Source of the DNA: Sphaerolaimus hirsutus
Taxonomy: Eukaryota > Nematoda > Chromadorea > Monhysterida > Sphaerolaimidae
NCBI GenBank assembly: GCA_964036195.1
Contig: OZ038459.1
Location: 18,535,206-18,599,205, forward strand
DNA length: 64,000 bases
Direction: 5' to 3'
Below are positions 4,661 through 62,900 of this stretch, one piece after another. The number at the start of each line of letters is the position of its first letter. Positions within the stretch are counted from its first letter, which is position 1. Below the pieces are notes generated by a model that made no database searches, had not been told where the DNA came from, and saw only the letters and a list, made by a program, of their open reading frames with translations. The position numbers and the translations under genes are program-made.

Positions 4661-5011
4661 CTATTGTCTAGATGCCAAATGGGCTTACATGCGGACAGGC
4701 ACAGGGCCGTCATCAATATGCCGTACTTCCGTGAAATACTCCGAGGGGTGTCACATTCGTACATTCAAAAACCTTGCATTGATTCACGTTTATCTGTATT
4801 CAAATTTTATGTTCTTTCATTCCCCCGCAATGAAAACCTTATGTGGACCACAAAAAATTATGTAAGTGGTTCGAATAAATAAGCCCTCTTGATGTTTCTG
4901 ACACCATGCCTACGTATACAAAATTAAAGCGTAAGGTTACAATTTATTGTTCCTACTATCGTGTCGTTCCGTTACATATTTACGTCCTACGTTCAAATTG
5001 CGTTTACGGTC

Positions 5012-5195
5012 TGGTGCTAATCCCAGACCCTGTAAAATGCCCTGTCAAATGTCAAATGTCGTGTAAAGTGTCAAAAGTCGTGTAAAATGCCCTGGAAAAT
5101 AGCAAACGTACGTTTGTCGTTTCCCAGGGCATCTTACGTGACTTTTGACTCATTGCATGACATTTTACATTTTACAGGGTCCGAGACTACCTCCT
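5012..5195 (+). mobile_element. Introner-family hairpin element, copy A
   Basis: The left end GGTGCTAATCCCAGACCCTG is followed by ATGTCAAATGTC-type units. After a central turn near GCAAACGTACGTTTG comes the complementary arm, ending CAGGGTCCGAGACTACCTCC. The arms are diverged. It lies upstream of the exon at 5291 and is not an exact intron here: no exon sequence abuts it. Confidence 0.75.
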
Positions 5196-5290
5196 GAAAC
5201 CATGCTAAACACTCTACCCTACCATCTCTACTCAACTATGAACAGCACCCTAAACTGTCACCCTGCAAAACCCATTGTCACCCTTCACAG

Positions 5291-7616
5291 GGCTCGGCGG
5301 TCGGGGGCTCCACTTCCAGGGCGCACAGCAACATGCCGGCCACGTCGCAGACCGTACTGGTCGCCCAGCCGCCCTCCAAGTGGCCCGCTAAGGTGAACAA
5401 GGTGGGTTGGGGTACCATTGGACTGGTGCCAATGCGAGACCCTGTGAAATGTAAAATGTCATGCAAAGTGTCAAAAGTAATGGAAAATGCCCTGCAAAAT
5501 GGCAACCGAGTTGCCATTTTGCAGGGCATTTTCCATTACTTTTGACATTTTACATTTTACAGGGCTTTTTACAGGGTCTGGGAGTGCCCCAAGGGGGTGA
5601 CAATTTAAAGCGTTTTTTATATTTTGATAGACATTTTACAAATTTGAATGACATGTTACATGACATTTGAAAATAAAATTTACACTTAAAGGATGTGGGA
5701 CTGCCACCAGATAAAAGGTCATGTTTTACGAGCAAAAATCGTTCATGAAATACAAAATGATATGCCTAGTCCTTATCAATAAATCTTAATTAAGTAGGCA
5801 CGTGACACTAAAAAACTTTTCTGAACGGACGTTTCAAAATTTTTGAAAACACTTCATCAATTCTTCATTCAAGTTTTTTTTGCAGCACCTTCACGGCATG
5901 TTACGAATAACTTAACGGAGGCACAATTGGGCACAATTCACAGTGTCTGTGAGCATGTCTGTAAACAAAACATAACTTAATACAGTTTTGGCTCGATTAA
6001 TGTCGACAAAACACACTTTCAAATTCAAACCTAAATACCGCATATCCTTGAATTAGACTCCCTTGAATAACCTCCTTGAATATCCCCCCCACTTGAACCC
6101 CCCCCCCCCCCCTCTGTGATGGGTGGAAGAGGCATTCTGAGTAAAACAGGACTCCCCTTGAATAACTCCCCCTTCAAAAACTCTGACGGAAAAAACTCCT
6201 CTGGAATCTTATTCGACGATACACAGTATATCGACACCAAACCCCAAATACCCCCTCCACCCACCCAACCCCCAACCCCCAGACATCCCTGGCCGGTTCG
6301 ATGCAGCCGCGCCCTTCCAGCTGCGCCACGCTGCACAGCGACACCACGGACACGACGGCGGGCACGGGCTACACGCGCGGCACCGGATTTAGTAGCAGCA
6401 CCACTGGCAGTAGTGCTGCTGGGGGTTGGGCTTGGGGTTGGTTGGGGGGGGGATGGAGCTCTTTCTGCAAGTAAGCTCGCTGTGCACGTAGTGGCGGCCT
6501 GCAAGTTATGGTGGCTGCTGCGCAAGTGTGCTCGCTAAGCAAGTAATCACCTCAGTTAGCTTTTAAAAATGGTGATTTTGAGAAAATGTAATTCAATATA
6601 AGCTCAGAAAATATCTCAAAATGTATGTATAGCCGGGGTAGCAGTCAAAAATTCAGGAGATTTAGATGTTGAAAATTATTAGAAAATATTTTAAAAAAAT
6701 CTTATATTAATTTACATTTTCTGCCGATTTTTCCACTATGAGAAGAAAATATAAAAAAATTCTCATAAATATTTTCTTGTACTTTCTCTGCCACCTACAT
6801 TTCATTTTGGAAGAGTTCATTTGCTGTGACCAAATCCCACGGACCCAAACGCAACTACTCCCAATCACCCCCAGGCCAAAAATCGTCCTGCAACGGGCAC
6901 CAACTGTTGCCGCCCAGCTCAACCAACGTGCAGCACTCTTCAAACAAGCGACTATTAAACGCCCTTTTAGCCCGGTCGCCCTTTGGCGGGCGGAAAATGC
7001 GCACCGCATTTTCTGTGGATCAAAGCGACCAACATATTGGAGCCGGGTCTTCAGGCAATGTTACCAGTTTTGGGAGGGGCGGGGCCAGGGCCCGTGGTGC
7101 ACCGGTTCTGCAGCGACAGGTGGGTTTGAGAAGGGTTTTTGGGAGGGTTTAGGGTTTCATAATTGTCCGCTTGGGGCATTCGTGTGTTGGTTTTTTAGGA
7201 GTTTTTGCTTTTTAGTTAATTCTAATGTGTCTGCGTGTAATAATGCCTGCGAAAACCAGTTGACGGTCGATTAGCAGTCAACTGAAATATGTTTTAAGCG
7301 CGTCCGTCAGGCTTACCTGTGATCGCGTTTCACAATACTCATCTTAACTGTGGCAGTTCGCGGAAGGATATTCTCGGTAAATGAATAGGTATTTAGAATA
7401 AACATGCTTGTAAATAGCAATAAACCATTAATTAACTTACTAACATGCCCTTAGGTAATCCTTTTTTCTAGGTAATCCTATGGTATTTTTCCTTTATTAT
7501 AACGCCATGGAAAATTTTCAATAATATGGCAGTCGGCGGTGGGCCGGCCCTCCAGCTGTTTACCCGAACGCCGGAATATCAACATGGCCGAATTCCATTT
7601 TCCATCCGATGCCCAG
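5291..7616 (+). CDS. Four exons of an unidentified Ser/Thr/Gly-rich protein gene (partial)
   Basis: Exons proposed from acceptor/donor signals and frame: 5291-5401 (CTTCACAG acceptor, 37 codons), 6283-6470 or 6283-6424 (Ser/Thr/Gly-rich, donor GTAAGC at 6471 or GTTGGG at 6425), 6814- or 6816-7119 (about 102 codons, with SNKRLLNALLARSPFGGRK and an Arg/Gly-rich tail, donor GTGGGT) and 7533-7616 (28 codons). The 6283-6470 / 6816 pair joins in phase 2, and 7119 / 7533 in phase 0. The peptide is low in hydrophobic residues and rich in Ser, Thr, Pro, Gly and Arg, so probably disordered. GC content is well above the surrounding DNA. The start codon and first exons are not identified. No domain is recognised. 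The model continues into the exons at 13632 and 23009. Confidence 0.5.
5426..5590 (+). mobile_element. Introner-family hairpin element, copy B
   Basis: The left end is GGTGCCAATGCGAGACCCTG and the right end CAGGGTCTGGGAGTGCCCC. The arms meet at GCAACCGAGTTGC around 5503-5515. It sits about 24 bases into the intron after the exon 5291-5401, so here it is an insertion within an intron and not the whole intron. Confidence 0.8.
6035..6225. repeat. CGAATAA-type repeat element
   Basis: Starts at TACCGCATATCCTTGAAT and runs through CTTGAATAACC units and a poly-C tract to GAATCTTATTCGACGATACAC, the edge motif of this family. It lies directly upstream of the exon at 6283. Confidence 0.55.
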
Positions 7617-12736: not shown

Positions 12737-12876
12737 GGCAGTCCCTGTAAAATGTCAAGTGTCATGCGGAGTGTCAAAAGTTATGTCAAATGCCCTGGTG
12801 CCATTTTCCATGGCATTTTACATGATTTCGACACTGCATGACATTTGACAAATTACAGGGTCTGGAAGTGGCGCCT
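12737..12876 (-). mobile_element. Introner-family hairpin element, copy C, reversed
   Basis: The left end GAGGCAGTCCC matches the complement of the family right end, and the right end CAGGGTCTGGAAGTGGCGCC matches the complement of the family left end, so this copy is in the opposite orientation. The TGTCAAGTGTCATGC and GCATGACATTTGACA arms pair. Confidence 0.6.
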
Positions 12877-13631
12877 GGCTTTTCTCAACCGTGTCTTTGT
12901 GATTTATATTTATTTACAACTATTTATTGCCCCAATATTTTACCAAGTTCTGCACTTCTGCACTTCTGCACTTACAAATACTTCAATTTCAACCTTCCGC
13001 CTGTACAAATCACGCTTTTGTTTTTCACATTGTTTGTTAGCCGCCACGAAAAGTGCGGTAAAAAAGGAATTGAACTTGGCACTTGGTTGATGCGCAGCAT
13101 GGAAAAAGATAAGCGCATGCTTTTTTCAAGCGAAAATCGGATATGCGTGTGCTCGTAGGTAGAATTTTGCTGCAGACACACAGGTGTCTACAGAAACTGT
13201 GCGCTTAACAGCATCAGAAATTTCCATTGATACTTTCATCGGATATGGTCTGACAGTTATTTTCTATGTAAATTTACTAGCGAGGCTTTTGTTATTTGTT
13301 TAATATACTGTCTGCTTCGATAATAGGAATCGTATATCTATTTTCTGCAGAATTTCCGTTTTTCTTAACAATATCAGCGCGATTATGTCCCACTAGTAAT
13401 GTAAAATCGCCAGAAACAATAACGCCATGGTGACACCCAAAAATACTTCTAGGCGCCAATGGCGCCACTCAAAAGGCGCCATGCCATCACTACTCCCCAC
13501 TCGTAAATATCCTTCGCAAAAAACCACCATTCCTTCACATTTTTTTTCACATTTTTTTCACATTGACCGAGAATTGCGTTTCTTTTATGCCGCCAAAAAA
13601 AATAAAAAAATAAAAAATTCACTTTTTTCAG

Positions 13632-30972: not shown

Positions 30973-31128
30973 CCGCGCTGCGGCACATTACCATGCGATA
31001 ACGCGACGACGCCAAATTCTCAATGCACATGGATTTTCCGTCGCATTCAATGGAATATTTGTGAATGGATGAGCGAAAAAGACGGCACAAAACACTATGC
31101 TCGGCGCTACTCGGGCGCGCGGCAGCTG

Positions 31129-31319
31129 GGCGCTAATCCCAGACCCTGAAAATGCCCTGTAAAATGTCAAATGTGATGCAAAGTGTTAAAAGTCATGTAA
31201 AATGCCCTACAAAATGGCAAACGTTTACCATTTTGCAGGGCATTTTACATGACTTTTGACAGTTTGCATGACACTTGACATTTTACAGGGCATTTTACAG
31301 GGTCTGGGACTGCCCCCAG
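31129..31319 (+). mobile_element. Introner-family hairpin element, copy D, near-intact
   Basis: The left end is GGCGCTAATCCCAGACCCTG and the right end CAGGGTCTGGGACTGCCCCC then AG. The arms pair almost completely, with the turn at GGCAAACGTTTACC. GGGCGCTAA occurs on both sides (31128-31136 and 31319-31327), possibly a target duplication. It is very similar to COP1 intron 15, hence a young copy. No recognised gene surrounds it; if spliced it would need a GC donor. Confidence 0.85.
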
Positions 31320-35544: not shown

Positions 35545-38500
35545 ATGGCCGGCGAAAGTAGCAGCGCTGGGAACTTATCCGCTCTGAGCGCTCTTGCTGC
35601 CAGTACAGCGCCCGGAGTGTAAGTATCTACGTTGATTGGCACGTCACATTCGAAATTAGAAACGAGTGTGGTTAGAATAAGTTTGGATGGATTTTTAGAG
35701 GATGGAAAAACTAGATGGCAATTTCGGCGGCAAATTCCGCACTTTGTCAAGTAGCGGGGAGAATTTCTGTCTATAAATGTTAGAAATTTGCTGTCCGGTG
35801 CAAGTGCAAGAGGACCAAAGTCCTCGTTCAAGACATCAAATTTGTAACTTTTCTGTCTCTTGACATATTTCTGTAACTTGACAAAGTACGCAATTTTAAC
35901 TAAATGTTTAAAAAAAATTTAACCGTTAAAATTGAAATGAATTTTAACCAGGGCTCTAAAAAATCTAAACAACCACCTAACCAATCCTTTCCGCTCACAG
36001 CAATGTCGCGATACCGAAAAAGTTCTCATTCGGTGGCCTGCGCAAAAAGTCTGGCGGCACGGAATCGAATGGATCCTCGAGTACGAACGATGTTAACAAT
36101 GGAAAAATTCCGCCCAGAGAAGAGGTGGAGAAATGGGCGAAAAGTTTTGAGAATCTCGTCAGAAATGATCGTTAGTTTCTCGTTTTGATTATGAGTGTTT
36201 GCTAGTTCGCTTTTGAAGTACCAGGGAATCTGTAGCGCAAAGTAAATTAGCTCTAAGTAAGCAGCGATGGCAAAACCTGGGGTAATTTTCCACATTGTCA
36301 GGTTATACCAGTCAACAAGCATTGCCGATTTTTTAAATAAATGTTTGAGCCTACAAAAATCAGTCTACATAATTGGAACTTTTGTATACGTATTGAAACT
36401 ACGTTTTGAAAATTTTGTCACTTAAACACACTTATCAACAATTTTTGATGTGTCGTTCAACTACACTTGACCAGGATGAATAATAACTCATTGGAGTCCG
36501 ATTCATAAGTTTCCGAAATTTTGGTGGCTGAAAAAAAGTTGAAACTGGTGGTCCGAACACCAGTTGACATTTGTGTGTCAACTGGTATATGTCAACTCAT
36601 ATTTCGGCTACACGAGTCGCAGAGCGATCTCCAAATGCACATGCGGCAAGGCTAAAATGAATATTACAGCAAGTGCATTGGATATCGCTCTGCGACACGT
36701 GAAACCGAAATACGAGTTGACACAGACCAGTTGACATACATGTGTCAACTAGTGTGTGAACCGCCAATCTAAACAATTATACACAGCGCCCACCCCCCTC
36801 GCAGACGGCGTGACCCTGTTCCGCTCGTTCCTGCAGCGTGAGTTCTCCGAAGAGAACATCGACTTTTGGATCGCCGTGCAGGAGTTTCGCGCGGCCGCCG
36901 CCGCCGGCGACAGCGACGCCGAATTGGCGAGAAGAGCGCACGCGATTCATGATGAATTTGTCATGGTGCAGGCGCCCAAAGAGGTCGGTCAAGGGGGGCT
37001 GGCGCGATGGTGGCCGCGCACTAGTTGACACTGGTGTGTCAACTGGTGCCAGTTCCGCAAATTGAGAAGTGATAAGTGAAATGGCAAATGCGAAGTAATT
37101 GAGAAGAAAATTGGCAAAAGCGAAGTGATATGGCAAGTAAATTGGCAAAAGCCAAGTAAAAAAGTAATTTCCCTTCGCTTTTGCCGATTTCCTTCTCAAT
37201 TCACTTCTCACTATTTTTCAACATTGCCGCATGTGCATTTCGAGATCGCTCTCCGACACGTGGGCTAAAATCTCGAGTTGACACAAACCAGTTGACACGC
37301 AAATGTCAACTAGCGTGCGGGCCGCCAATCTCGCACCAGTCTCAGATGAGATTTGTCAAAATGTTATGTGAGATTCACGTCGATACACGAAAGGAAATTT
37401 TACGGGGCGCTTTACAAGTTGGCGACAGTCCAGCGGATTTAGAGTCAGTTACTGAAAGCATGCTGTTTGCTTGTTTGTGTGTGGCACTCACTTACAGGAA
37501 AAGAAACGTTTTTCAGTTACCTAGATAAAGTTTACTAGATCCTCCCATTTTCACAAATACCTGATGAATCAATAATAAAATTAGACTGGCATTGATTGTC
37601 TCGAAAAAAGCAGTCCTTGCCCCATATACAATTAGACATCAACCTGCCTCCCTAATTTAATCTGCTTGAATAAATTAAAATTAATTTAAGCATATTAAAT
37701 TAGGTAGGCAGGTGCCCGGCATTCCCGCGTCGTGTAAAGTGTAAAGTCAAATGTCAAATTCCATAAATGCAAACTGTCAAACGTCGGGTAATAAAATCAT
37801 TTATTTTTATCTTAATTGACATTTTACATGACATTTGACTTTACAGGGTTAACAGGGTAAGTTAACAGGGTGCGGGACTGCCCCCTCCCCGCTCGTTCTT
37901 ATATGCCCAGCGGACATGAATGAATATCGAATCAATGAACACAGCTCAGCGATGATTGAATTTTTTGCACAATAATTAAATTGGTCACTGCCCACCCACA
38001 CACACACACACAAACACACACATGCGTCATTTCCTGGCTTCAATATCCTACATAATTAATGTTTGGAGTAACTTCGTACATAAAAGTCATTAGTAAAAGT
38101 GATTCGCATCCGTAAATAAATGTATGGGAATTACATAATTACATACCTATTTGCAGTAACACATGTCGCATATTTTATAATTTACATAAGCGCAATTTTT
38201 TAATTAATTAATCTTGCCAGTGAAGATTGAAACCCTCCCAAACACATTCTGCCATTCAAGCAGCCATCTCCTGGATTGGCGCCAATGATAAATATGTCTT
38301 ACTAGTGATGTAAATAAAAAGCGCCAAAGTTTGGCGCCAAGCCACGGCGCTTTTCTGCATCCCAGCACCAAGTGCAAATTACGCCAGAGCAAAATTTCGT
38401 CGAAAGCGCCAACATTTCTCCTTTGGCGCCAGCGCCATGGCGCCATTACATCACTACTCCCTACCCTTAAATCATAACAATATTAGGCTCCTTATATCAC

Positions 38501-40977: not shown

Positions 40978-41935
40978 TCAGCCAAAACGGAGCTTGGTTT
41001 TCATGCTGCCCTTGCGCTGGCGCACCATGGGCACCGAGTTGACCAGGGACGATCTGCATTGATCGAATGTTGAATCGTGATGGGAGATATGGTGAATTCT
41101 GTAGACTCGGTGGACATCACACTTTGACTGTGTGTGGAAACCTACCGTAACCCATCTGAATAATGAACTGAGATTTGTACTGTTTTTCATCATAATATTA
41201 CGGCTTTATTATGGAATAATTAATTGGGAAATTTATCACAAGATTTTATTCATTGAATTATTGTGGATTCTGCGCATACTTTGCGGTCCGCTGAGTATAC
41301 AGGTGCCAAGTATACCCTATAAAATGCCCTGTAAAATGTCATGCAAAGTGTCAAATGTCGTGTAAAATGCCATGCAAAATGGCAAACGTGTTATCGTGGC
41401 AAAATAGCAAACGTGGCAACATGGGAACGTGGCCTAACACGACAACGACAACAAATGTCAAATGGTTTCAATCTCAATTCAAAGTTTGCTGACGACCCGA
41501 CGAAAGACTTTCAAATGCAGAGGCAATGTTGAATGGTGTTGATGTTGATGATGTTGCAAAAGAAAAAAATACCTGTAGAAAAAATGTTGCGGTTACAAGC
41601 CCGGCATGAAGTTTGTCCGTATACAATAATGCATAGTGTTATTTTACTCAACTCACCAACAAACTTTAAATTGGGTTCGGGACCAGTTGACATTTGGTGT
41701 CGTTGCCAATGAAATTCATGAAAATAAAAAAATTAGCCCCTCAAAACCAACGGAAACCCTCGTCCCAACAGATCCATCATATAGTCATAACGCGCATCAG
41801 ATCGCTTCTGCGCGTCAACGTCCCGCCCATCATCAAACGAATCGATGTTTCCCAATTGGGACTGGTACTTGCCCAACATGAGCGCGGGAATATCCGCACC
41901 GTATAAGCCCATTTTGTATGGACTTTTGGGGGAGC
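40978..41935 (-). CDS. Last two exons of an unidentified minus-strand gene
   Basis: Minus strand: exon 41935-41758 (acceptor CACCTCCAG, donor AGG/GTTTCC) and terminal exon 41053-40978 (acceptor AATGCAG, stop TGA). The phase-2 end of the first and phase of the second agree, so the tail reads through for about 83 residues. The first exon encodes SPYKMGLYGADIPALMLGKY, then an Asp-rich stretch (NIDSFDDGRDVDAQKRSD) and YDYMMDLLGRG; the last exon is basic and ends KGSMKTKLRFG at the stop. GC content is exon-like. I do not recognise the family. The terminal LRFG might suggest an amidated RF peptide, but no dibasic-cleaved precursor layout is seen. Upstream exons should lie above 41936 and were not found. 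Confidence 0.6.
41098..41302. repeat. Inverted-repeat element, ACTCGGTGGACATCAC ends
   Basis: TGTAGACTCGGTGGACATCA on the left pairs loosely with TGCGGTCCGCTGAGTATACA on the right. The same family is at about 39480-39675. It sits in the intron of the minus-strand gene. Confidence 0.55.
41303..41395 (+). mobile_element. Introner-family element, truncated copy E
   Basis: GGTGCCAAGTATACCCTATA, then AAATGCCCTGTAAAATGTC and ATGCAAAGTGTCAAATGTC: a left arm only. The right arm is absent. It lies in the intron between the two exons of the minus-strand gene, antisense to it. Confidence 0.6.
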
Positions 41936-43674: not shown

Positions 43675-46600
43675 ATGCTTTTGCCCATGGTTGACGAGCA
43701 AGAACCCTCATCTCAAGCCGTTTTGAAAGCGTTCCTGATTGTCAATGCCGCATCGCCAGAAATATTTCATGATTGTTTGGAATTGGAACTGCGCCAAAAC
43801 TGTGATGAAACTGAAAATCGAGGCACTGAAATGAGCGCTGGGAAAGTGTGGGCTGTCGCGGAAGCAAAACAATGGCTGAAATCAAGCGTCCGCATTTTAG
43901 ACGGCGGTATGGCCACGGAATTGGAATCATTGGGGCTAAACTTCACTGTAAGTGTTCATTATTACCATTTTGGAAAAGTGCCAAATTTTACATAAGATCG
44001 TTTTTGCAGGGTGATACTTTATGGAGTGCCAGGGCACTTCTGCAGAATCAGTCTGACGTTTTAAAGGCGCATTTGAGGCCAGTGCTAATTTTGTGCTTCT
44101 TTCTAGCGGGCGACTTAATGTTTTCTTAAGTTTTTGTGATGTCGGCTCAGACACGTGGGAAAGTTTTTCTTCATCTACGCATGTCGCATGGTGTTATTGA
44201 GTCGTGATTCAAGTGGATAAATAGAAAATGGTTGCATATTTGGTTTGTCTTACAAGTGTGTTACTGTGTTTTTACAAATGATCATTTTTGCACGATAAAT
44301 ACAAATGCGAAATTTAGAAAACTCGACAAACAAAATATCAAATTGCACGAATGACCCAAATTCCGAAAAAAAATTCCTTTGATGGGTGTCCCTTCATTCC
44401 AAAAATTATTACTTCTGTGAATTACAATTACAAATCTGTCGAAAATCCGCCAACAAATACCCAACACTGCAGATTCATGCAGTCCGGTTGTAATATAATT
44501 ACCACAAACACTTACCAAGCCACGTTGAGCGCTTTACAAAGGGTGTGCAATCAAAGTTTTGAGGATGCCTGCCGAACTGTGGCTTCTGGTGCCAGTCCCA
44601 GATACTGTAAAAGACCCTGTAAAATGTAAAATGCTGTGTAAATTGTAAAATGTCACGCAAAGTGTCAAAAGTCATTTAGAATGTCCCGGAATGAATTCTG
44701 ATACTTTGAATGACATTTGACATTTTACGCGATCTTTTTCATGACTTTGACATTTTACAGGGTCTTTTACATGTCTGGTACTGGCCCCTGGTGTTTCAGT
44801 CGCTTGCCAAGCCAGAGAGCAATTTGTCACTGAAAATTCATTTTCTGATGTTGCAAATGTTGGTTATACCCAGGGTTTCAAATTCTGAAATGTTTCAAAT
44901 TCTGAAATGTTTCAAATTCTGAAATGTTTTAAATTTGATACTCTTCAAAATTGATCTTGCAAGATAAAGTGCTAAATGATAGATACTGACTGCACATTTT
45001 TCACTGAGATCTACCATACCCATATGCAGGGGTCTCCTAGGGGGGGGGCTGGGGGGGGGCTGCCCCCCCCAAATCGGCCAGCTATCTATCTATCCCGGAG
45101 GCCGCTCAGCTATCTATCTATCCCGAGGCAAAATTTTTGGCTACTATCCCCAAAGACCCCCCCCCAAATCGCTCAGCTATCTATCTATCTGGAGTGGTTT
45201 TTGAGAAATTTTGCCCCAATTTTCGCTCAAAATCACCAATTTTCGCACCTTTTTATAGTTTTTCACCTTCAAAATCGTGCTTTCCGGCTATATACATGGT
45301 TATATACCTATTTTTAGCCATTTTATACCTACTTTTGGCTACTTTTAACTGATTCTTAGCGATTTTTTCCCCTTTCTGCCTTCTTAACCTTGAAAAAGCC
45401 TATATATTGTGCCCCCGCCAGCCCCCCCCCAAGCCCCCCCCCAGCCCCCCCCCAGAAAAATTTTTCAGCTATCTATCCCTCCGGAGGAGCGATTTGCTAT
45501 CTATCCAGCCCCCGCGAGGGCCAAAATCCTGGAGACCCCTGCCCATATGAAAATAAAACAATTTTTTAACTTTAAAAACGTAAATATTCACTTTCACTGA
45601 AATAATGTGGCTTCATTTCTCACTTAATTTATGGGTGCTCCAGCTTTTTTGCAGATAAAAATTGCTGCATCCATTGGTCCGTACGCCTGCGAATTGTGTG
45701 ATGCTTCCGAATACTCCGGTCAATACATCGATAAAGTTGACCCTAAGGTTTGTGAGATAATGCTGGCCAACACACTAGTTGACACATGTGTCAACTCATC
45801 TGATTTTCAAATGCACTTGCCGAAACATTTATTTTTCAACACTGCCGCATTTGCATTTGTAGATCGCTCTGTGACGCATGAAGCCGAAATCTGAGTTGAC
45901 ACGGACCAGTTGACACATCTGTAAACTAGTGTGTGGGCCGCCATTACTTCTATATTTAATGGAGGCTTTGCAATTACAATTTTTTTGCAGTTGTTACATG
46001 AACATCACCGATTCCAATTGGAAGCAGTATTGTCTGCGAAAATAAATTTTGGCGTTTTGCCAGATTTCATCGCATTTGAGACAGTGCCGGCTCTACGAGA
46101 AGCGATTTGTGTTATGGAAGTGTGTGAGAGATTCGCAAGAAAAATGGAGTTGCCGCCTGTGTGGATAAGCTTCAGCTGCAAAGTAAGTTTTGTTATTTCA
46201 CAGTTCTATTAGAGAGTATAAAATATTTATTATGATGGAAAAGTGCCAAACAACTAGCCGCTAACACTTTTGGTGCCACCTGAAAAGGACTGCACCGGGT
46301 AAATAGGCTGGTTCTATGGTACAACAGGTGACAGTCTGTTAATTGTAAACTGTCATGTAAAGTGTTATACAAATTTGTCAAATGTCATACAAAATGTCAA
46401 AATGATGTATTTTTATATATTTTAACATTTTACACTTTTTGACACTTTACATTTCACAAGGTGCGGAACTGCACCCATAAATAGGGTGCCAAACCCAATT
46501 GCGCCGTGGAATGGTGCTCTCAAACGTGCCAGCTTCAAAGGCTTCATGGCACCGTCCTACTGTCACTGGGTTAATTTTTTCTGCCCACAATCTCAGGATT

Positions 46601-51507: not shown

Positions 51508-54500
51508 ATGAAGCGTGCTAGCGACGATCAGGTGCCAGTCTCATACTGTGTAAAATGTCATGTAAAATGTAAAATGTCATGCAAAGTGTCAAAAGTCATG
51601 TGAAATGCCCTGCAAGGTGGCAACCGAGTTGCCATTTTGCAGGGTATTTTACATGACCTTTGACACTTCGAATGACATTTGATATTTTGAATGGCATTTT
51701 ACAGGGTCTGGGACTGCCCCCAGTATGCGCCCACGCCCAAATACCCTGCGCGCCATGGCGCCAGTTTGGTGACCTCCGATCAAGTTGCAGTCAGATCCGG
51801 GGAACACGGTACCGGTGCACCACAGTTTTCTTCCGGTATGGCAATTGCGGTGCGGGGTTTGAAGTGGTTCGTTTGTCATTTTCAGGTTGTGTGTGTATTT
51901 GTTAAAACGTATATGTTTATCGAAAAATACCTATACTCGTGTACTGGGTATGTACGTTGACGTTACCTCTACAAAAATTCCCGTACTCTCTTTACGCACA
52001 CTTTAAAAGTACGTTAGTGCAGAAAGCGGAAAATTAATGGGGTGCATAAAAAGATAGAATGACCCTAAACGGATTGAGACTGCTGCAAAAATGGCAGCGG
52101 AAATGCTTTAACTTGCAATGGGTAGGACATGCGATGACCGTCATTTTTATTTTTCCTCATTTTTAAGTTTTACTGAGTATGAAATCGAAAAATTTTTCCA
52201 TTTTACGTTTTCCCTGAGTAAAAATATGTGTAATTACGTTTACTCACCTTTACGCAGTGTAAAAGCAAAAAAATTACGTTTTCTGTACTCAGACGTGAGT
52301 AAAAATAAAATACTTTCACGTTTACTTCCAAGAAGTACAGTACTTTGAACAACTCTGATTGTGTTTTCCCTCATTTTTCAGTCCGATCTGCTGGCAACTG
52401 CCGAATGATCCGTACATGACCGCTTGCGGCCACAGTTTTTGGTTAGCACTTGAAAGCTCTGGTAAGATATGGGGATCGGTGAAACTGCGCAATACTAAGC
52501 TTCACAGGAGCCGTCAATTTCATGGTTGCTGCCGCCCGTGCCTTGGTTAAGTGAATTTGCTCCCGTCCGGGGTAGTGATGTAAAAGGGCCTGAACCCGAT
52601 GCACAAGTTTACCCGGTGCACAAGCAATATCCGGTGCCAAAGTAGAACCGGACCCGGTTACCTCTCAAACGCTCCAGCTATCTACATATTTATCTGACGA
52701 TTTTTCTCACGTGTTTCCTTCTAAAGCTTGAAAAATCTTATTTATTGGGCCATATTGAACCCCTGTGAACCCCCCCCCCCCAAAAACGACAAGTATACAC
52801 ATGATTAGCGATGGAATGGCGCCATTTGAGGGCATCAAAGTACTCCGCACCATGGCATCCTTTTACTATCTTTGCTACTTGTGCACCGGCACAGTGCCAT
52901 GTAAAAGAACCATGGCGCTGGGGTTTGGAAAAGCTCCATGGCGCTTTTCTGGAGCTATTTATTCATGGCGCCGGGAACAAAACGCTTGGCGCTAAAGCAA
53001 AGGGTGCTTTTGGTGCTTGCCGCTGAAGTTCGGAAAAGCGTCATGGCGCGCTTGACGCCAAAGTTTTGGCGCTTTTAATATCACTACTCCAGGTTTCTAG
53101 ATAGTAACTCGCTCCTAAGTAGGGATAGATAGCTTAAAAAATTTGGGGAGGTTTCGTGGGGACGTAGCACAGCATAGTTAGGGTTACCCCCCAACCCCTA
53201 ATCCCTGCGCCCACGTATTACTTTCAGATGTCGCGCATATATACTCGTTTAACAACTACGTTTTCAAAATCACAGCCACTCGTGCATTTCGAGAAGTTTC
53301 GAGACTTCACCGCGGTGCCCCCAATGCAAAACAGAAAGTTCTGTGACTAATTTCGAGCAGTACGCATTTCCAAACACTGCCTTGAAATCGGTTGTCGACT
53401 GCGCCAGAATTAAAAAGGAGCCGCGCAGTGAGCAGTTAGATGGTGGAGATGTGAGTTTTTCATGATGGGATAAATTTGAGTAGTAAGTTCTGTAAGCAAT
53501 TTGATTTAATGGCAAAAAATGCGAGAAATAATAAAAAAGATTCCAAAATTCGAAAAGTTGAAATAAAGGTTCCAAAATTCGAAAACTATTTTACAGAAAA
53601 AAATTCGAAAAGTCGTTTTAGAACAACACTTTAAAAAACACAAAAATAAAAGAACTTTTCCAGGGGGTTTGCCATTATTAACAGTTTGTCAACCCCCATA
53701 CGCAGAATATCTCCAAAATCCTGTCACTGCTCAACTCACTGTCAGAATCGGAAATAGATTCCCTTTCATCTGAACTGTTGCGGCTCAAAAAATCCAGAGA
53801 GCAAAAACATGAAGATCACAAGTTGAACCGCGCTTTGACACTCTTTTTGTTGAATGAAATGATAAAAAGAAAAAATTGCGAAATGGATGATATGAAAAGA
53901 CAGTTGCAAACTATGCAGAAAGATAAGGAAATTCTGTTGGTCCGTAATTCTGGCATTCTTTGTTGGCATTCTGCCAATTTATTATCTGTCCATTCTTCGC
54001 TATTTCAGACTGAAGCGTCGAAATGCGCAGCACATACAACCGAAAGTTCTGAGGTCGGTTTAGTTTGTAATACTGAAAATAATGAGAGAAAAATTTCAAA
54101 TAAAAAAAAACGTTAAAAAATATTTTGAAATTACGCAGGTATATGTTCCGCATGCTGCGACTGCTTTTTCCAGTGAAAAATACCAGAGGGGTTGCTCTAT
54201 CTTGGACAAACATTTTGATGAGTTGTACAGAGAGTATTTGGACAAAAATGATAGAATTTCTGATGGTGTGATGAATTTTTGAATCCTATTCTCGCTTTGT
54301 TCCCCCGGGTTTCGAAAAAACGTTTTCTGAACAAAACTAATTCACTGAAAAAATGTTTTTGGTCCTTATCAACACTTTCAATTTAACCTGACATTCAAAA
54401 TCGACAGCCGATCTTCACTTGAATATTTTCTACCTGCGCCACACTTTTTTCTAATTTTTCATTTTCCCCACCTTTGCAGCCGCCAGCAGCCAATCAACAT

Positions 54501-57500
54501 TGAGCGATTTCGAATCAGTTGTGGCTTCGGTCACCAGCGTGGCGAACGGCCGCACCGTGGCCCGGCTCAATTTTAATGAACAATTCACTGCGACTAGAGG
54601 AGCTTCTGTTAACATCCTGTCCGGGTGTGTGTTTTTGCGTGTGTATTTCAAATAATTTTTTTTTTTTTTTTTGAAGTGAAATCTTTATTGTTTAGTTCTT
54701 TTCTGAATAGAAAAGTTGAAAAATATGAAAGTTCACGGGGAAAAGGCGAATGCCAGAACACCATGATTTTAAATATCCCTGAAACACCCCCACCTACCTA
54801 CCCAGAAAAAAGTGACGCCAAATTTTTACAAATTCAAACTCTCCCAACAGCATCGAATTCGACAAGGACGCCGAGTACTTCGTGTTGGCGGGCGTGAGCA
54901 AAAAGATCAAACTGTACAACTTCGAGCAGGTGATGCGCCAGGCAAATCTGCGACAGTCGCAAGTCGGCAGTGCGTCAGATGCGGATGTTGAGAGTAATAG
55001 CAATGATTCCGCTGGTGGGTGGACCTATTGTACGATCGGGATTGACTTTTCGGGATCAGAATCGTGATCGAGATTGTTTTTTTTTAGTTTTTGGGATCGG
55101 GACTGTTTTTTAGATTTTGGGATCGGTGTTTTGGACAAGGTTTTGATGTTAACGAGTTTTTTTTAATTTACCGCAAAAATGATCTAAAACACACTTGGAT
55201 GCCACGCTGGAGTGGTTGCTGGAGGTTTACGTTCACAGTTCTTGTGCAAAAATGTCATTTTACAAATTCGGCAATTTTCGGTATCTGAATCGGGACCGAA
55301 AACCCGGAAAATCTCGGGATCGGGACCGCGTTTGAACCATAGGTTTTTTAACAAGACATTCAAAAAAAACACCGGTCATCCCCAAACAAGTACTACAAAT
55401 ATCTGCCGCCACATTTACACAAACAGACACTTATGTACCTAGATCTGCGCACCTACAACGGGTACGAAAGTGAGGCGGACCCGTCGCAGCGGCACTACCC
55501 GCTCAGCGAGATGCAGTGCAGCGCGAAGATATCCTGCTGCAGCTTCAATTATCACTGCAAGCATCTACTCGCTAGCAGTGACTATGAAGGCACTGTGCAG
55601 CTGTGGGACGTTAATTCGGCCACTGCGCTGCGGCAGTACACTGTGGGTGGGACTTGTGGTTGGCTGTGGGGATGGGTGGAAAGTCTGAAAACGCTTTGAT
55701 GTCGGAGAAGTTTTTGAAATGATTCATGAAATTTTTTTTAATAGTTTTCTTTCGAGTCAGAATTGGGATGAACTCTATCCCAGAATTGGGATGAACCCAA
55801 GCGTTGTCCACGGGTATTCTAGATTTTGACCATCCGGTTGGGTTGGGTAGCTAGCAGATCGCTCCTCTGGAGGGATACATAATTATTAAAGTGAAAAAAC
55901 TATGAAAACTAGCGATTTATGTGTAAATTTGTGTAAAAGTTCTCAAAAATGGCTCCGGATAGCTAGATAGCTGACCGATTTTTTTTTGGGGGGGGGTGTC
56001 AGGCGTAGTAGCCAAAAAATTTGCCTCCGTGATAGATAGCTGAGCGGTGTGGGAGGTGGATTAACAGCCCAAACCCCCCCCCCTTCTCACCTTTTGCAAG
56101 CGCAGAACTCACAAATTGCCCCCCTCCCACAGGAGCACACGACCCGCTCCTGGACTGTGCACTTCCACGCGGGCCAGCCGCGCTGCCTGGCTTCCGGCGC
56201 CGACGACGGCACCATCAAGCTGTGGGACACCAACTCGCAGCACTCTGTGTGCACCCTCAACGCCAGGTGCCAGTCCCAGAACCCTGTTAAAGACACTAAA
56301 ATGGCATGTGTCATAAAGACCTTATGATGTGTCATGTGTATCCAAACCCTATTCTACATCATCCAAGTCGTATGCTTTTGTATCCAAATCTTACATTTTA
56401 CAACTAAATATTACATGATTTGGATTCAAAGAATAGAATAAGGTTTGGAACCAATAGAAAAAGATTTGGATACACATGACACTTTACTGGGTCTTTTACA
56501 CGACACATGACATTTTCCACGGTCAATTACAGGGTCTGGGACTGCCCCCAGGGTGAACGTGTGCTGCGTGCATTTCAACCCCGTCAGGCAGGACCTGTTG
56601 GCGGCCGGTTTGAGCAACCACGCCACGCATGTGTATGATATTAGAGCGCCCAGTAAACCAGTGAAGGTGCTCACTGGACATGCGAAGGCGGTGGGTTCTG
56701 GGGAGGGGGGATGTTTTTGAGGTAGACTACGCGGACTCCATGCCTGGCAATTTTCTGAAATTTTTCCAAAAAAAAATGAAATTATAGAAAGTAGGGAAAG
56801 GAAAAAAAGGTTAAAAGTAGCCATGATAGGTGTATTGCCGAAAATAGCTATTTTTAATGTGGAACTGGAGCAAAATTTAGCTATTTTGAGTAAAGATGCT
56901 CGCTAAGTAAAGTAGAGTAAAGTAAAGTTGCTTCACGTAGATATGTAGATAGCTGAACGCGGCATAGATAGATAGCTGATCGGCTTTTGGGGTAGATAGA
57001 TAGCTCTGGCCTATTTAGGGGAGGCAGCCCTCCCCCCGCTTGGAGACCCTTGTCGCAGCGTGATTTGCACGCTATTGGCACCTTCAAAAGGCAGTGTATT
57101 TTCACAGGTGTCCTACGTGCGTTTTCTATCCGACGGCGACCACTTGATATCGGCTAGCACCGACAGCTCGCTGCGGCTGTGGCAATTGGGCCGCGACTTA
57201 GTTGGCGATGATCAGGTGCCAGTCCCATACCCTGTGAAATGTCAAATGTCATGCAAAATGTCAAAGATCATATAAAATGTCCTGAAAAATGGCAAACGTA
57301 CGTTTGTCATTTTACAAGGCATTTTACATGACACTGAGTTTTGACACTGCATGACATTTTGCACGGCATTTTACAGGGTCTGGGACTGCCTCCAGGGTGA
57401 CCAGGCGGATGGAGTTGTCAAACGTGTGTTCACTGGACATGTGAATGAGAAGAACTTCGTCGGATTGTCTGTGGAAGGCGATATGGTGGTTTGCGGTCGG

Positions 57501-58651
57501 TGTTGAATCGGGTCGGGGTATAACGTTTGGGAATTGTTCGAAATTACAAAAATAAAACGAAAAACGGCGTAGCGTAAAAAAAATTATCATTGAAGTTCCC
57601 GGTTCGAGTCTCGGCGATTTTCTATCTAAATATATGAACTCCCGGTGGGGCCCAAATTAGCTAAACCCTAATTGGGAGTAGACTACTTGCGCTGAGAGTT
57701 TACTTGCGCTGCGGCACACCCCCGTTTAATCCCTATTTAGAATCACAAATAAATCTTTCGCCATGCCCCTTGCACCACATACACCATCACAGGCAGCGAG
57801 AGCAACTCGGTGCACGTGTACAACACGGGCGTGCGCTCGCCCCTGCTCAGGTGCTAATCCCAGACCCTGCAAAATGCCCTGTAAAATGTCAAATGTCATG
57901 CAAAGTGTCAAAAGTCATGTAAAATGCCCTGCAAAATGGCAAACGGACGTTTGCCATTTTGCAGGGCATTTTACATGACTTTTGACACTTTGCATGACAT
58001 TTGACATTTTACAGGGCATTTCACAGTGTCTGGGACTGCTCCCAGGTACGACCTGACGGCGCTGCGACGGCCGCACCCCGCGCCCGTGAACACGCCCAAT
58101 GCGCATTCGCCGTTTGTCAGCGCGGTCACGTGGAAAAAGGTTGGTTGGGATTTAGGAGCAAGGTGTTTACGGGAAATATTGGTGACGACGAGAATGTCTT
58201 TTTTAAAGTTTCATTTGTCAAGGAAAAAGTTGCGTATTTGTGTGAAAAGTCAGTGAAGTATACATACTACTTGAGTGTACACACATGCCAGGTTCAAGAT
58301 AATTTGTGCTTGTTGAGCAAAAGTTGATGGATTTTGGAAAAAGTTATTTTTCTCATCGTTATCGTGGCTGCGTGTATACACTCAAGTATATTGTGTATAA
58401 ATACTTCACTATTCTAGCAAATACACAGCGTTTTCCTTGAAATATGAAGCTTCACAGAAAATTGTTGTCGTCGCTAATTTTTTCCTTGTGAACACAGCCT
58501 TAAAAATTGTAGAATTTCATTCTTTTTAAATTTATTTTTGGTTGAGTTACCCCACACGATGTTAATTTCTTTTTCTGTGTCCCTGCAGGGTTCCAGAGTG
58601 ATCGTGGCCGCGAACAGCGTGGGAAACGCGGAAATTATTCAACTTTATTAA
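51508..58651 (+). CDS. COP1: COP1-type E3 ubiquitin ligase, 17 exons, complete
   Basis: Exons 51508-51531, 51724-51866, 52382-52441, 53276-53450, 53706-53939, 54008-54052, 54139-54265, 54480-54624, 54851-55014, 55443-55642, 56133-56266, 56552-56690, 57108-57215, 57396-57495, 57793-57850, 58046-58139, 58589-58651; all phases close, 670 residues (animal and plant COP1 about 675-730). A C3HC4 RING ([20 protein letters not shown], then RCPQC; residues ~55-100) is followed by a coiled coil (~135-215) and seven WD40 blades (~315-670) with [28 protein letters not shown] and [15 protein letters not shown]1 targets transcription factors such as c-Jun and ETS for degradation, binding VP-motif substrates with its propeller. 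The first RING Cys codon is split by intron 2. Introns 1, 11, 13 and 15 are each exactly one introner element. The start is the ATG of the first exon; a further upstream exon cannot be excluded. Confidence 0.95.
51532..51723 (+). mobile_element. Introner element, copy G = COP1 intron 1 (192 bp)
   Basis: The first intron base is the first base of GTGCCAGTCTCATACTGTG, and the last intron bases are CTGGGACTGCCCCCAG. Arms with GTCATGCAAAGTGTCAAAAG and TGACCTTTGACACTTCG pair around GCAACCGAGTTGC. The intron is phase 0 and lies eight codons after the start. Confidence 0.9.
52803..53090. repeat. GGCGCC-rich MITE in COP1 intron 3
   Basis: TTAGCGATGGAATGGCGCC at the left and GCGCTTTTAATATCACTACT at the right are imperfect inverted ends. 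ATGGCGC units are scattered inside. Flanked by fragments of the ATCTATC element. Confidence 0.6.
55811..56085 (-). repeat. ATCTATC / CCGGAGG element in COP1 intron 10
   Basis: GGGTATTCTAGATTTTGACC, CTCCTCTGGAGGGATACAT and GATAGCTAGATAGCTGACC in minus orientation. Confidence 0.6.
56267..56551 (+). mobile_element. Introner element, copy H = COP1 intron 11 (285 bp, composite)
   Basis: Begins GTGCCAGTCCCAGAACCCTG at the exon edge and ends ACAGGGTCTGGGACTGCCCC then CAG at the next exon. The middle (about 56330-56480) is a different palindrome (GTATCCAAACCCTATTC against GAATAAGGTTTGG and TTTGGATACACATGACAC), so this copy is longer and carries a replaced or inserted core. Phase 2 intron. Confidence 0.9.
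56695..57056 (-). repeat. ATCTATC-type element in COP1 intron 12
   Basis: GAAAGTAGGGAAAGG, AGCAAAATTTAGCTATTTTG, GATAGATAGCTGATCGGC and a terminal GGAGACCCTTG match the family in minus orientation. The right edge ends about 50 bases before exon 13. Confidence 0.5.
57216..57395 (+). mobile_element. Introner element, copy I = COP1 intron 13 (180 bp)
   Basis: GTGCCAGTCCCATACCCTG follows exon 13 directly, and GGGTCTGGGACTGCCTCCAG abuts exon 14. The turn is at GGCAAACGTACGTTTGTC. Phase 0. It is the shortest copy among the exact introns. Confidence 0.93.
57851..58045 (+). mobile_element. Introner element, copy J = COP1 intron 15 (195 bp)
   Basis: GTGCTAATCCCAGACCCTGC begins at the exon edge, and TGTCTGGGACTGCTCCCAG abuts exon 16. 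The two ~88-base arms are almost perfectly complementary, meeting at GCAAACGGACGTTTGC. Phase 2. Very close in sequence to copy D at 31129-31319. Confidence 0.95.
58151..58505. mobile_element. Palindromic MITE in COP1 intron 16
   Basis: TTTAGGAGCAAGGTGTTTAC on the left and CCTTGTGAACACAGCCTTAA on the right, with AGTGAAGTATACATACTACT inside. Same family as 14209-14652. Confidence 0.75.
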
Positions 58652-59987: not shown

Positions 59988-62900
59988 ATGCTCGATGATC
60001 AATGGAAACCCTTCTCGCTCACTTACGTCGCTTACAAACAAGGTATGTCGTGAAACTTCGTGCCACTCCCAGATCCTGTCGAATGTGCAGTGTCAGAGTC
60101 ATGTACAATGCCCGGTGATATGGCAAATGTACGTTTGACATTTTGCAGAGCATTTTACAGGGTCTGGGACTGTCCCTTGGTGTACTTTGTTCTCTCTTTT
60201 TTTTGGGAGGGGGGGATGGTGCGGGTTTTTTTAGGGCGTGGCATGAAATGCCTCCCTGGGCGTACACATTTCTCGGTGTGAAAGTCAATTGGCAAATTTG
60301 AAGAAAAAATTTCTTTCTGGATTTGATTTCAAACTGTTTCCGGGTCGGGATCGATAAATCTCGGAATTTTTTGGGATTCGGTGTTTGCACCCCAGCTATG
60401 TAAATATTTGGGCTACCATCATCGCCAATCGCCTTTTCACATTCGATTTGCTTGTGTCCATTCTCAGATGATGCATTGTCATTCCTATTGGCTGTGGCTG
60501 GTTTGTCTCCGCTCGTCATAGTTGTGGTCGTTTGCACGCTGGTGCTTTCCCGCAGAGATTTGCACACCGTGAGTTGCTGTTCCAGTGTGTATTTAGTTGA
60601 TAGCAGGAGGAAGGATTTGGGGGGGGGGGGTATTTTTTCGCCAGACTTTTTAGACTGGGGTTATTCGAGGGGAGGTGTGATTTTTGCGTAAGAACTTTGC
60701 ATCAGGGGTCTCGAATGGGGGGGGGGGGGTTAGGGCCCACACACGCTAGTTGACATCGACACCAAAGGTCAACTGGTGGCGATCCCGATTCAAAGCTTGC
60801 TGACGAGTGGACGAACGACGTTCAAACGCAACCTTTGAATTGGGAACGGAACCAGTTGACATTTGGTCTCGATGTCAACTAGCGTGTGTGGGGCCATACC
60901 CCCCCCAAACCGCCCAGCTATCTATCTATCCCGGAGGCAATTTTTTTGGCTACTATCCCCTAACCCCCCCTCCAAATCGTCCAGCTATCTATCTATCTGG
61001 AGCGATTTTTGAGAAACTATAGCCCAATTCTTGCATCAAATCGCTTTTTTTCATACCTTTTTATAGATTTTTACTTCCAAAATCATAATTCTGGTTCCTA
61101 TTTGCCTATTTAGTACTATATGTTCTTGTATACCCATTTTGAGCTATTTTACACCTACTTTTAGCGATTTTTCTCACTTTTCTTCCTTCTACGTCCCGAA
61201 AAAGCCTATATATCGAACCACCACACCCCCCCCCCCAAACCCCCCCCAACCCCCGCCCAGAAATTTTTTCAGCTATCTATCCCACCGGAGGAGCGATTTG
61301 CTATCTATTTTGCTTTGCATTTAATGCATAATCAATTCACTGTAAATGGGGCTAAATTTGTTCCATACATCATGATTTAGAATAAAAATTCCCTGATTGA
61401 AGCAATAAACTCATTGCTAACCGATTTTTTCCAAGGGTCGAGGGCTTTTTCAGTTTTCGCGTTCAGTTTAAGCTAGTGTAACGACCGTTCTACCTTTTCC
61501 GCGCAGATCAGCGTTCTCGCGTTGCAAGCGTGCAATGAGCTGATAAACTTCGCGCTGAAACGCTGGTTCGCTCAAGACCGGCCCAAAAGCGTTTTACCCG
61601 CCGCTCACTTTGGCCGTTTCGGTTTCCCCTCGCAACACGCCCAATTCATGGGCTTTTTCGCCGCCTATTTTACGCTTTTTGTATTCGTCAGGTCGGTTTT
61701 TTTTATTTTTACACAATTGTTTTCGATTCTGATGTGTGGTGCCGTACAGATTGAAATTGAGTGCGACAGTGGTGACGTCGGCGCTCAAGTTGCTGCTCGC
61801 TGCCTCGTTGTGGACGCTCACGGCTCTGGTCGCATATGGCAGGTGAGATGTTTTGATGGTTAGATGGCACTTTGAGCCCGCAACTTTTCTAAATTCATTT
61901 TTTTACTTTACGAGATAAGGTCACTGCAGCTCTAGACTGCCCATTCCGCGGTATTTCACTAAACGTCGATAAGCCAAAAAATTTTTATTTTGAACATTTT
62001 AGTTTCCGATTCAGTGCCAGTGATGCATGTCCAATGGTCCAATTGACTGAAAATGCTTAAGTTCCAAATATTTTTGCAAAAGTGTAAAATTTCCCACCTC
62101 TGCTTTCAACAAGAATGCGAGCAATGAGCTTTGTACAAAACGCGTACAACGATGTTACAAGTCGTCGATTAAGCAGGTGGACTTCTTGTCCGCGACTATG
62201 TTTTTGTTCCTGGCTTCATTAACTTTGCTTAGTGGGCACTTTAATGACTTTTCGTCTTTTACAATTCAGTGTTCACAATGGACTGATTGACTTTCTTGGA
62301 CTTTCTGATTGGCTATCTTTCCCCAAAAAAAATCGTGGCATGGGTGGACTCAACGACTTGTATATTTTTTTAAAAATTCATAAAAAAACGTTCAAAATGT
62401 GACACTTGAAGATGGGGCAAGTGACGTCAAAAAAATTTGTTGAAAATCTTGACAAATGTCTTGACTTGTTCAACCTTAGACACCAATTATGGACATAACT
62501 CAATTTTCGAAATTATGGACTTATCGACATTTAAAAGTGGTCAGTGCAAACTAGGGTGTCAAATTTCCGTTTTCCGTTTTCCGTTTCCGTTTTCCGCAGG
62601 CAAATTTTTTCCGTTTTCCGTTCCGTTTTCCGGCTGCTGAAATTTTTTTTCCGTTTTCCGTTCCGTTTTCCGGCAACTTTTTTTTCCGTTTCCGTTTTTC
62701 TGGCTCATTTTCCGTTTTCCGGCTAAATTTTCAGTTTTTCCGCCTTTTTTCCGTTTTCCGCCTCAATTTCCAGTTTTTCTGCCTTTTTTTCCATTTTCCG
62801 CCTCAATTTTCCATTTTTCCGCCTCATTTTACCTTTTTCTGGCCCAACTTTTTGTTTTCTGATCAGCCAAACTGGTAAAAATTCATGCAGATTGTCAATG

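Follow-up and report, generated by a model that had tools for sequence, protein, structure and literature searches.

A CAG/CTG-targeting hairpin transposon as the probable source of introns in the nematode Sphaerolaimus hirsutus

Four introns of a COP1 gene of the nematode Sphaerolaimus hirsutus each consist of one hairpin element and a 3-bp duplication, and are most probably introners, i.e., introns made by a transposon, in which the element brings the GT donor and a duplicated CAG brings the AG acceptor. The gene lies in a stretch of 64,000 nt (contig OZ038459.1 of assembly GCA_964036195.1, positions 18,535,206 to 18,599,205), called the window here; coordinates count from its first base. 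Introns 1 (51532-51723), 11 (56267-56551), 13 (57216-57395) and 15 (57851-58045) had been delimited in a preliminary description of this DNA, and their coordinates and lengths (192, 285, 180 and 195 bp) proved exact, as did its statement that the arms of all four elements are inverted repeats of each other. Each intron opens with GTGCCAGTC/GTGCTAATC, or a near variant, immediately 3' of a CAG and closes with a GGGACTGCCCC-type sequence, or a near variant, followed by a second CAG. The element had been drawn to include this terminal CAG; its left start stands, but the right CAG is duplicated target and lies outside. On the forward strand, the elements proper thus occupy 51532-51720, 56267-56548, 57216-57392 and, in intron 15, where the hairpin is near-perfect, 57851-58042; they are flanked on the left by CAG at 51529-51531 (the end of the proposed exon 1), 56264-56266, 57213-57215 and 57848-57850, and on the right by the acceptor CAG at 51721-51723, 56549-56551, 57393-57395 and 58043-58045. 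The earlier proposal of an introner with built-in splice sites survives for the transposon origin and for the GT donor at the left end, but not for the acceptor: its AG is supplied by the CAG target-site duplication, and the element therefore lacks a full pair of splice sites.

The gene is COP1/RFWD2: the joined exons match solved COP1 at 2.3e-80 (phmmer, PDB chain). The join across intron 11 (TLNA-R-VNVCCV) has no gap in this alignment, and the site of intron 15 falls within a locally ungapped stretch, while intron 13 sits among extra residues that the PDB chain lacks. Intron 1 lies upstream of all conserved sequence, so that exon 1 and the numbering of the introns are proposals. It had been argued that nothing short of excising the entire element lets the exon frames close; as an argument from length this fails, all four lengths being multiples of three. 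Retention is instead forbidden by in-frame stops, of which each element would contribute 2-4 (for intron 1, in an assumed phase).

In the mechanism that we favor, a non-autonomous PIF/Harbinger-like hairpin element of the CWG-targeting NuwaI type (CWG standing for CAG or CTG) would enter CCAG/CTGG sites, those in exons included. The two ends of the element differ at two positions, GTGCC replacing GGGGC, and this difference would give one end its GT donor; when the GTGCC end comes to lie upstream, the element and one duplicated CWG would become an intron. At a CAG site, the duplication would supply AG and a GT-AG intron would result, as in COP1. At a CTG site, the sole exact excision with the GT donor would be GT-TG; such copies would persist in conserved genes, and their right CTG would tend to become CAG by mutation. 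The RNA hairpin would join both ends and hide internal AGs, so that introns with a weak donor and an unusual acceptor could probably be spliced.

When the 348-Mb genome was searched for the family, as the preliminary description had proposed, the exact right end of 19 bases turned up 1,888 times and the reversed control pattern 0 times, so that the matches are not due to chance. CAG or CTG precedes 3,574 left ends (CAG 1,907; CTG 1,667), and right ends followed by CWG number 1,493 (CAG 883; CTG 610). A consensus built from 33 sampled copies, which measure 178-197 bp, has a length of 189 bp, and with its duplication one of 192 bp, a multiple of three; the lengths of 81 sampled copies are spread over the three length classes (31, 29 and 21). 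Most results below refer to a sample of 77 copies. The larger part was taken by the exact right end from the first 10.6 Mb of contig C1, which holds 79 of the 100 matches listed out of the 1,888; eight of the 79, which have no recognizable left end, were dropped. The remainder are six of seven foreign loci (L007 was dropped). The left ends of two copies, L093 and L107, are doubtful (4-5 mismatches).

CAG or CTG stands on both sides of the element in 61 of the 77 copies; eight retain only the right one, two only the left, and six neither. In 50 of the 61 the middle base is the same on both sides (26 A/A and 24 T/T, against 9 T/A and 2 A/T; Fisher p = 1.3e-7), and this agreement within copies identifies the CWG as a duplication external to the element. 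The right end reads GGGGC (GGGGCAG) and the left end GTGCC (GTGCCAG), one of the two differing positions creating the GT. Among 19 coding-like copies, C precedes the duplication in 8 of 10 A/A copies and G follows it in 9 of 9 T/T copies, which suggests that the element enters a single motif, CCAG, in both orientations. Its inverted terminal repeats, small size and target-site duplication are those of a miniature inverted-repeat transposable element. In the PIF/Harbinger-like PHIS transposons, the NuwaI group has CWG duplications and ends that usually start with GGG, and the survey found it in animals only (Han et al., 2015; PMC4482050). The S. hirsutus element shares the CWG duplication, the GGG-starting right end and an animal host; unlike NuwaI, its left end is GTG, a donor, and no transposase is linked to it. 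The TWA duplication of PIF/Harbinger proper was not found, since CAG or CTG flanks those 61 copies on both sides. An autonomous relative would be expected to encode a DDE transposase and a Myb/SANT protein. Two families with DDE_Tnp_4 matches (163 for both together) were found, and neither is linked to the hairpin element by its ends among the 150 of 306 candidates scored and the 31 loci read. The preliminary description regarded the family as active or recently active, which these data do not show: the best pairwise identity among 81 copies is 95%, the median best match is 88.7% (full-length matches qualified for 59 of the 81), and the search for an autonomous partner returned none.

Many copies lie in coding-like DNA. 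Coding potential was scored with a leave-one-out codon model in homology-fixed frames, trained on 12 loci and COP1; the training loci overlap those tested, and each was left out when scored. Views of the longest open frame and GC content were used only to choose joins. Both flanks are coding-like in 27 of the 77 copies, both score low in 23, and a score above 15 in either direction is reached in 37. If the element is taken out together with one CWG, the frame continues in 22 of the 27 coding-like copies, where 9 would be expected (p = 3.8e-7), and in 8 of the 9 that carry CTG on both sides (p = 9.7e-4). Of the 37 copies with a score above 15, the donor end lies upstream in 24 and downstream in one (margin above 5, p = 1.5e-6), or in 30 and 7 if no margin is imposed.

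Protein homology crosses several of the joins. Among 22 forward joins, five are spanned by a Pfam match above the curated cut-off (Oscp1, Srx, AA_permease, An_peroxidase and Rcd1), whereas none of 10 reverse joins, mostly those with the higher reverse score, is spanned by such a match; in L067 a CcmB match below cut-off (E = 0.008) crosses the reverse junction, and in L088 a UBM domain lies entirely on one side of it. Five forward joins are gapless at the junction in alignments to PDB chains (CNOT9, BCKDHA, AMPK gamma, SLC23A and Na,K-ATPase alpha), CNOT9 being counted here and again as the Rcd1 match, in which protein and profile spans are equal across the join. In COP1 and nine other genes, a protein-level match extends across the join, and similarity among the elements runs to the boundary, as in introners. 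Frame and homology suggest that splicing takes place, and at these bases.

Coding-like copies flanked by CTG on both sides (CTG..CTG) are as prominent as those flanked by CAG (9 and 10 of 27), and it is these that pose the question of the acceptor. Exact joining of their exons is possible only by GT-TG or its shifts, which have no canonical pair. In CNOT9, 111 of 111 residues align across such a copy without a gap (PDB), and the interrupted CNOT9 is the only one found in the genome; a search for a second returned none. The CTG..CTG copies in BCKDHA, AMPK gamma and SLC23A are likewise gapless at the junction (PDB); in OSCP1, 42 residues correspond to 42 profile positions across the join, and in a Srx-type G protein-coupled receptor (GPCR), the one tested of a pair, 97 correspond to 97 (both Pfam). 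This pair, L090 and L091, consists of oppositely oriented GPCR genes, separated by about 16 kb, which have one CTG..CTG insertion in common. Their left flanks are identical at 448 of 455 positions, with right flanks less alike; an alignment of the two elements contains 28 gap columns and 7 mismatches, with identity throughout the outermost 20 bases on the left and 16 on the right. The insertion predates the gene duplication, and both joined reading frames are open. CTG..CTG copies are 4-14% from the consensus. In humans, the major spliceosome can splice GT-TG introns, as described for 36 genes (PMC2374985). On the evidence of frame and alignment, exact joining of the CTG..CTG copies by GT-TG introns is somewhat favored.

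The hairpin may compensate for the splice signals; we take the GT donor to be weak by the usual consensus. The segment 57848-58045 is predicted to fold at -153.8 kcal/mol (z -25.6), and a second copy gave z -15.3. In the predicted RNA of these two copies, the splice ends are joined, and the stem buries the TTTTACAG or TTTCACAG that lies close to the right end. Coding-like copies keep a median of 53 of 60 end pairs vs. 47 in non-coding copies (27 and 23 copies, p = 8e-4; one copy of over 420 bases was excluded), a difference that a younger age of the coding-like copies could also cause. The predicted folds suggest a role of the hairpin in splicing.

The duplications also bear on how the acceptor may change after insertion. 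A is the middle base in 59.1% of right duplications (883/1,493) vs. 53.4% of left ones (1,907/3,574; p = 1.6e-4), the two sets not consisting of the same copies. T/A outnumbers A/T among mixed copies (9 and 2; two-sided p = 0.065). Among copies that retain a CWG only on the right, it is CAG in 8 of 8, vs. 35 of 61 with both intact (p = 0.02). CTG..CAG copies occur in Na,K-ATPase alpha and in a SLC12-like permease, where the protein and the Pfam profile span equal lengths across the join. A paralogue of the latter lacks the element, so that insertion into a previously continuous exon can be seen at this one paralogous empty site; it has CTA where the filled gene has CTG..CAG, which makes T the probable ancestral base and the right copy the one that changed from T to A. 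These patterns fit, and do not prove, an acceptor at the duplication that works as TG and better as AG.

The rival that survives best, though it is unlikely, holds that splicing uses sites within the element and that 6-11 codons remain in the messenger RNA (mRNA), in which case CAG or CTG at the duplication would be irrelevant. In one form, a GC donor two bases in (GT|GCCAGT) is paired with TTTTACAG near the right end and 21 nt are left (seven codons, e.g., VVWDCPL/Q); in two others, GT with TTTTACAG leaves 18 nt in copies that are shorter by one C, or 33 nt are left by use of an AG located 12 nt deeper in the element. Stop-free, in-frame alternatives of this kind exist in 7 of 7 CTG copies examined, five of them with the 21-nt GC-AG form, the remaining two being L069 (GT-AG, 18 nt) and L005 (GC-AG, 33 nt), and introners that add codons have been published for Aureococcus (PMC9860276). 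Yet the 6-11 residues would be inserted into CNOT9, AMPK gamma, OSCP1 and the WD40 domain of COP1, where aligned relatives have none. The 21-nt form is impossible in L005 (AG lost), L098 (GC lost) and L065, L069 and L087 (one base short), so that different copies would need different internal sites; TTTTACAG is inside the predicted stem; and neither the excess of A in the right duplication nor the uniform right CAG after loss of the left one is predicted.

Slightly less probable again is that only the CAG copies are true introns and that exonic CTG..CTG copies are damaging insertions, confined to a single haplotype or to genes that are being lost. The poor performance of TG as an acceptor in humans (PMC2374985) would fit, as would the eight copies that have lost only the left CWG, all with right CAG. 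Against this stand the equal frequency of coding-like CTG..CTG and CAG..CAG copies, the frame kept in all but one of the nine, their distance from the consensus, the interruption of the sole CNOT9 found and the copy that predates the GPCR duplication. Colonization of ordinary old introns by a hairpin transposon is very improbable: although some copies do lie in non-coding DNA (the 23 of 77 low on both flanks), the element coincides with the splice boundary to the base in 4 of 4 COP1 copies, with nothing but the 3-bp duplication added, and the SLC12-like paralogue has uninterrupted coding sequence at the position.

Several points weigh against the introner reading and, in particular, against its GT-TG extension. 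CTG copies are not depleted relative to CAG copies in coding-like DNA (p = 1.0), an odd result if splicing depended on the acceptor base, and one that splicing at internal sites would explain. Human TG acceptors were found only beside an AG and not constitutively (PMC2374985). By the codon-model measure, the frame is not kept in 5 of the 27 coding-like copies. Four of the 22 forward joins are reached only by Pfam matches below cut-off (cadherin, OmpH, C2H2 fingers by one residue and nec1 by two), and 13 by none. The joins compared with PDB chains were picked by eye, the protein being recognizable, and the alignments were made after removal of the whole element, so that a few extra codons would stay invisible. 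Only one empty site was found among 14 junctions searched, the 13 others yielding none, and selection by the exact right end may favor constrained copies. The broader proposal stands at about even chances: that an animal spliceosome takes TG as readily as AG in transposon-made introns, with the hairpin holding the ends and the acceptor set by the target duplication, and that TG introns later evolve to AG, all stages being visible in one genome.

The S. hirsutus family resembles the introners of Gozashti et al. (2022; PMC9860276) in being a non-autonomous, intron-making DNA element with terminal inverted repeats and/or duplications; in Chrysochromulina too, the element gives the donor and the duplication the acceptor (PMC9860276, Figure 2C legend). 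It differs from those introners in the CWG duplication, the full-length hairpin and the 610 of 1,493 CWG right ends that are TG. The same authors report introners from only two animal groups. The introner elements of Amoebophrya (PMC7789003) are similar in their hairpin inverted repeats, direct repeats at exon borders and non-canonical splice sites; unlike in that protist, where the sites are very variable, a single family has a fixed GT donor and an AG or, by our reading, a TG acceptor. In the copepod Eurytemora affinis (PMC5714493), introns with GA/GG donors are likewise recently gained, common and non-canonical in an invertebrate genome, but it is their donor that is odd, whereas the S. hirsutus introns combine a GT donor with an odd acceptor. 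Human TG 3' splice sites are alternatives to a nearby AG (PMC2374985); here, TG is the sole exact acceptor, and an AG lies 19 nt upstream of it in most copies examined. A CWG-targeting or GT-TG introner was not found described in the open-licence literature searched. Introners with inverted repeats and a duplication-supplied splice site are thus already known, and what is new is a CWG-targeting introner with a CTG..CTG class.

The origin of spliceosomal introns is an old question. In S. hirsutus, a single transposon family offers many insertions that differ by one acceptor base (CAG or CTG) in otherwise similar elements, together with CTG..CAG intermediates, and forms a natural experiment on the splice signals needed at the birth of an intron and on their improvement. 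Extrapolated from 27 of 77 coding-like copies in the sample and 1,888 exact right ends, transposon-made introns would number in the hundreds, provided that the sample represents the genome. If GT-TG splicing is true, many genes of this animal would be missed or broken in annotations that follow the GT-AG rule.

The window holds nine additional copies, complete, partial or decayed, mostly in one direction by eye. Two on the forward strand have CTG target-site copies on both sides: 5011-5196 (also given as 5014-5196), with flanks of unproven coding status, and 44586-44790 (also given as 44589-44790). The joined flank of the latter, which by eye looked like an F-box exon, returned no match in Pfam, and this assignment was dropped. 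A third forward copy, at 31126-31319 (also given as 31130-31319), has a left CTG, a right CAG and one additional base at its left end. The others are at 5426-5593, about 12740-12877, about 37712-37887, 41304-41392, about 46328 and 60060-60179.

Of the two DDE_Tnp_4 families, the first (L010-L039, 30 loci) is an unlikely autonomous partner; its ends, as far as read (the left end and target duplication not among them), are unlike those of the hairpin element. This Harbinger-type family has been recently active, as the 29 other loci are 89-99.8% identical to L013 over up to 2.6 kb, most above 98%; near one member, L029, only one end of the hairpin element is present. The second family is represented by L060, the one copy read, whose transposase seems to be split by introns and whose ends were not reached. 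Finally, contig C762 is the mitochondrial genome (14,754 bases, 83% A+T, code 5, with AGA taken as Ser by eye, which points to an invertebrate other than a tunicate), in which putative nad1 and nad2 lie, again by eye, on the strand opposite cox1.

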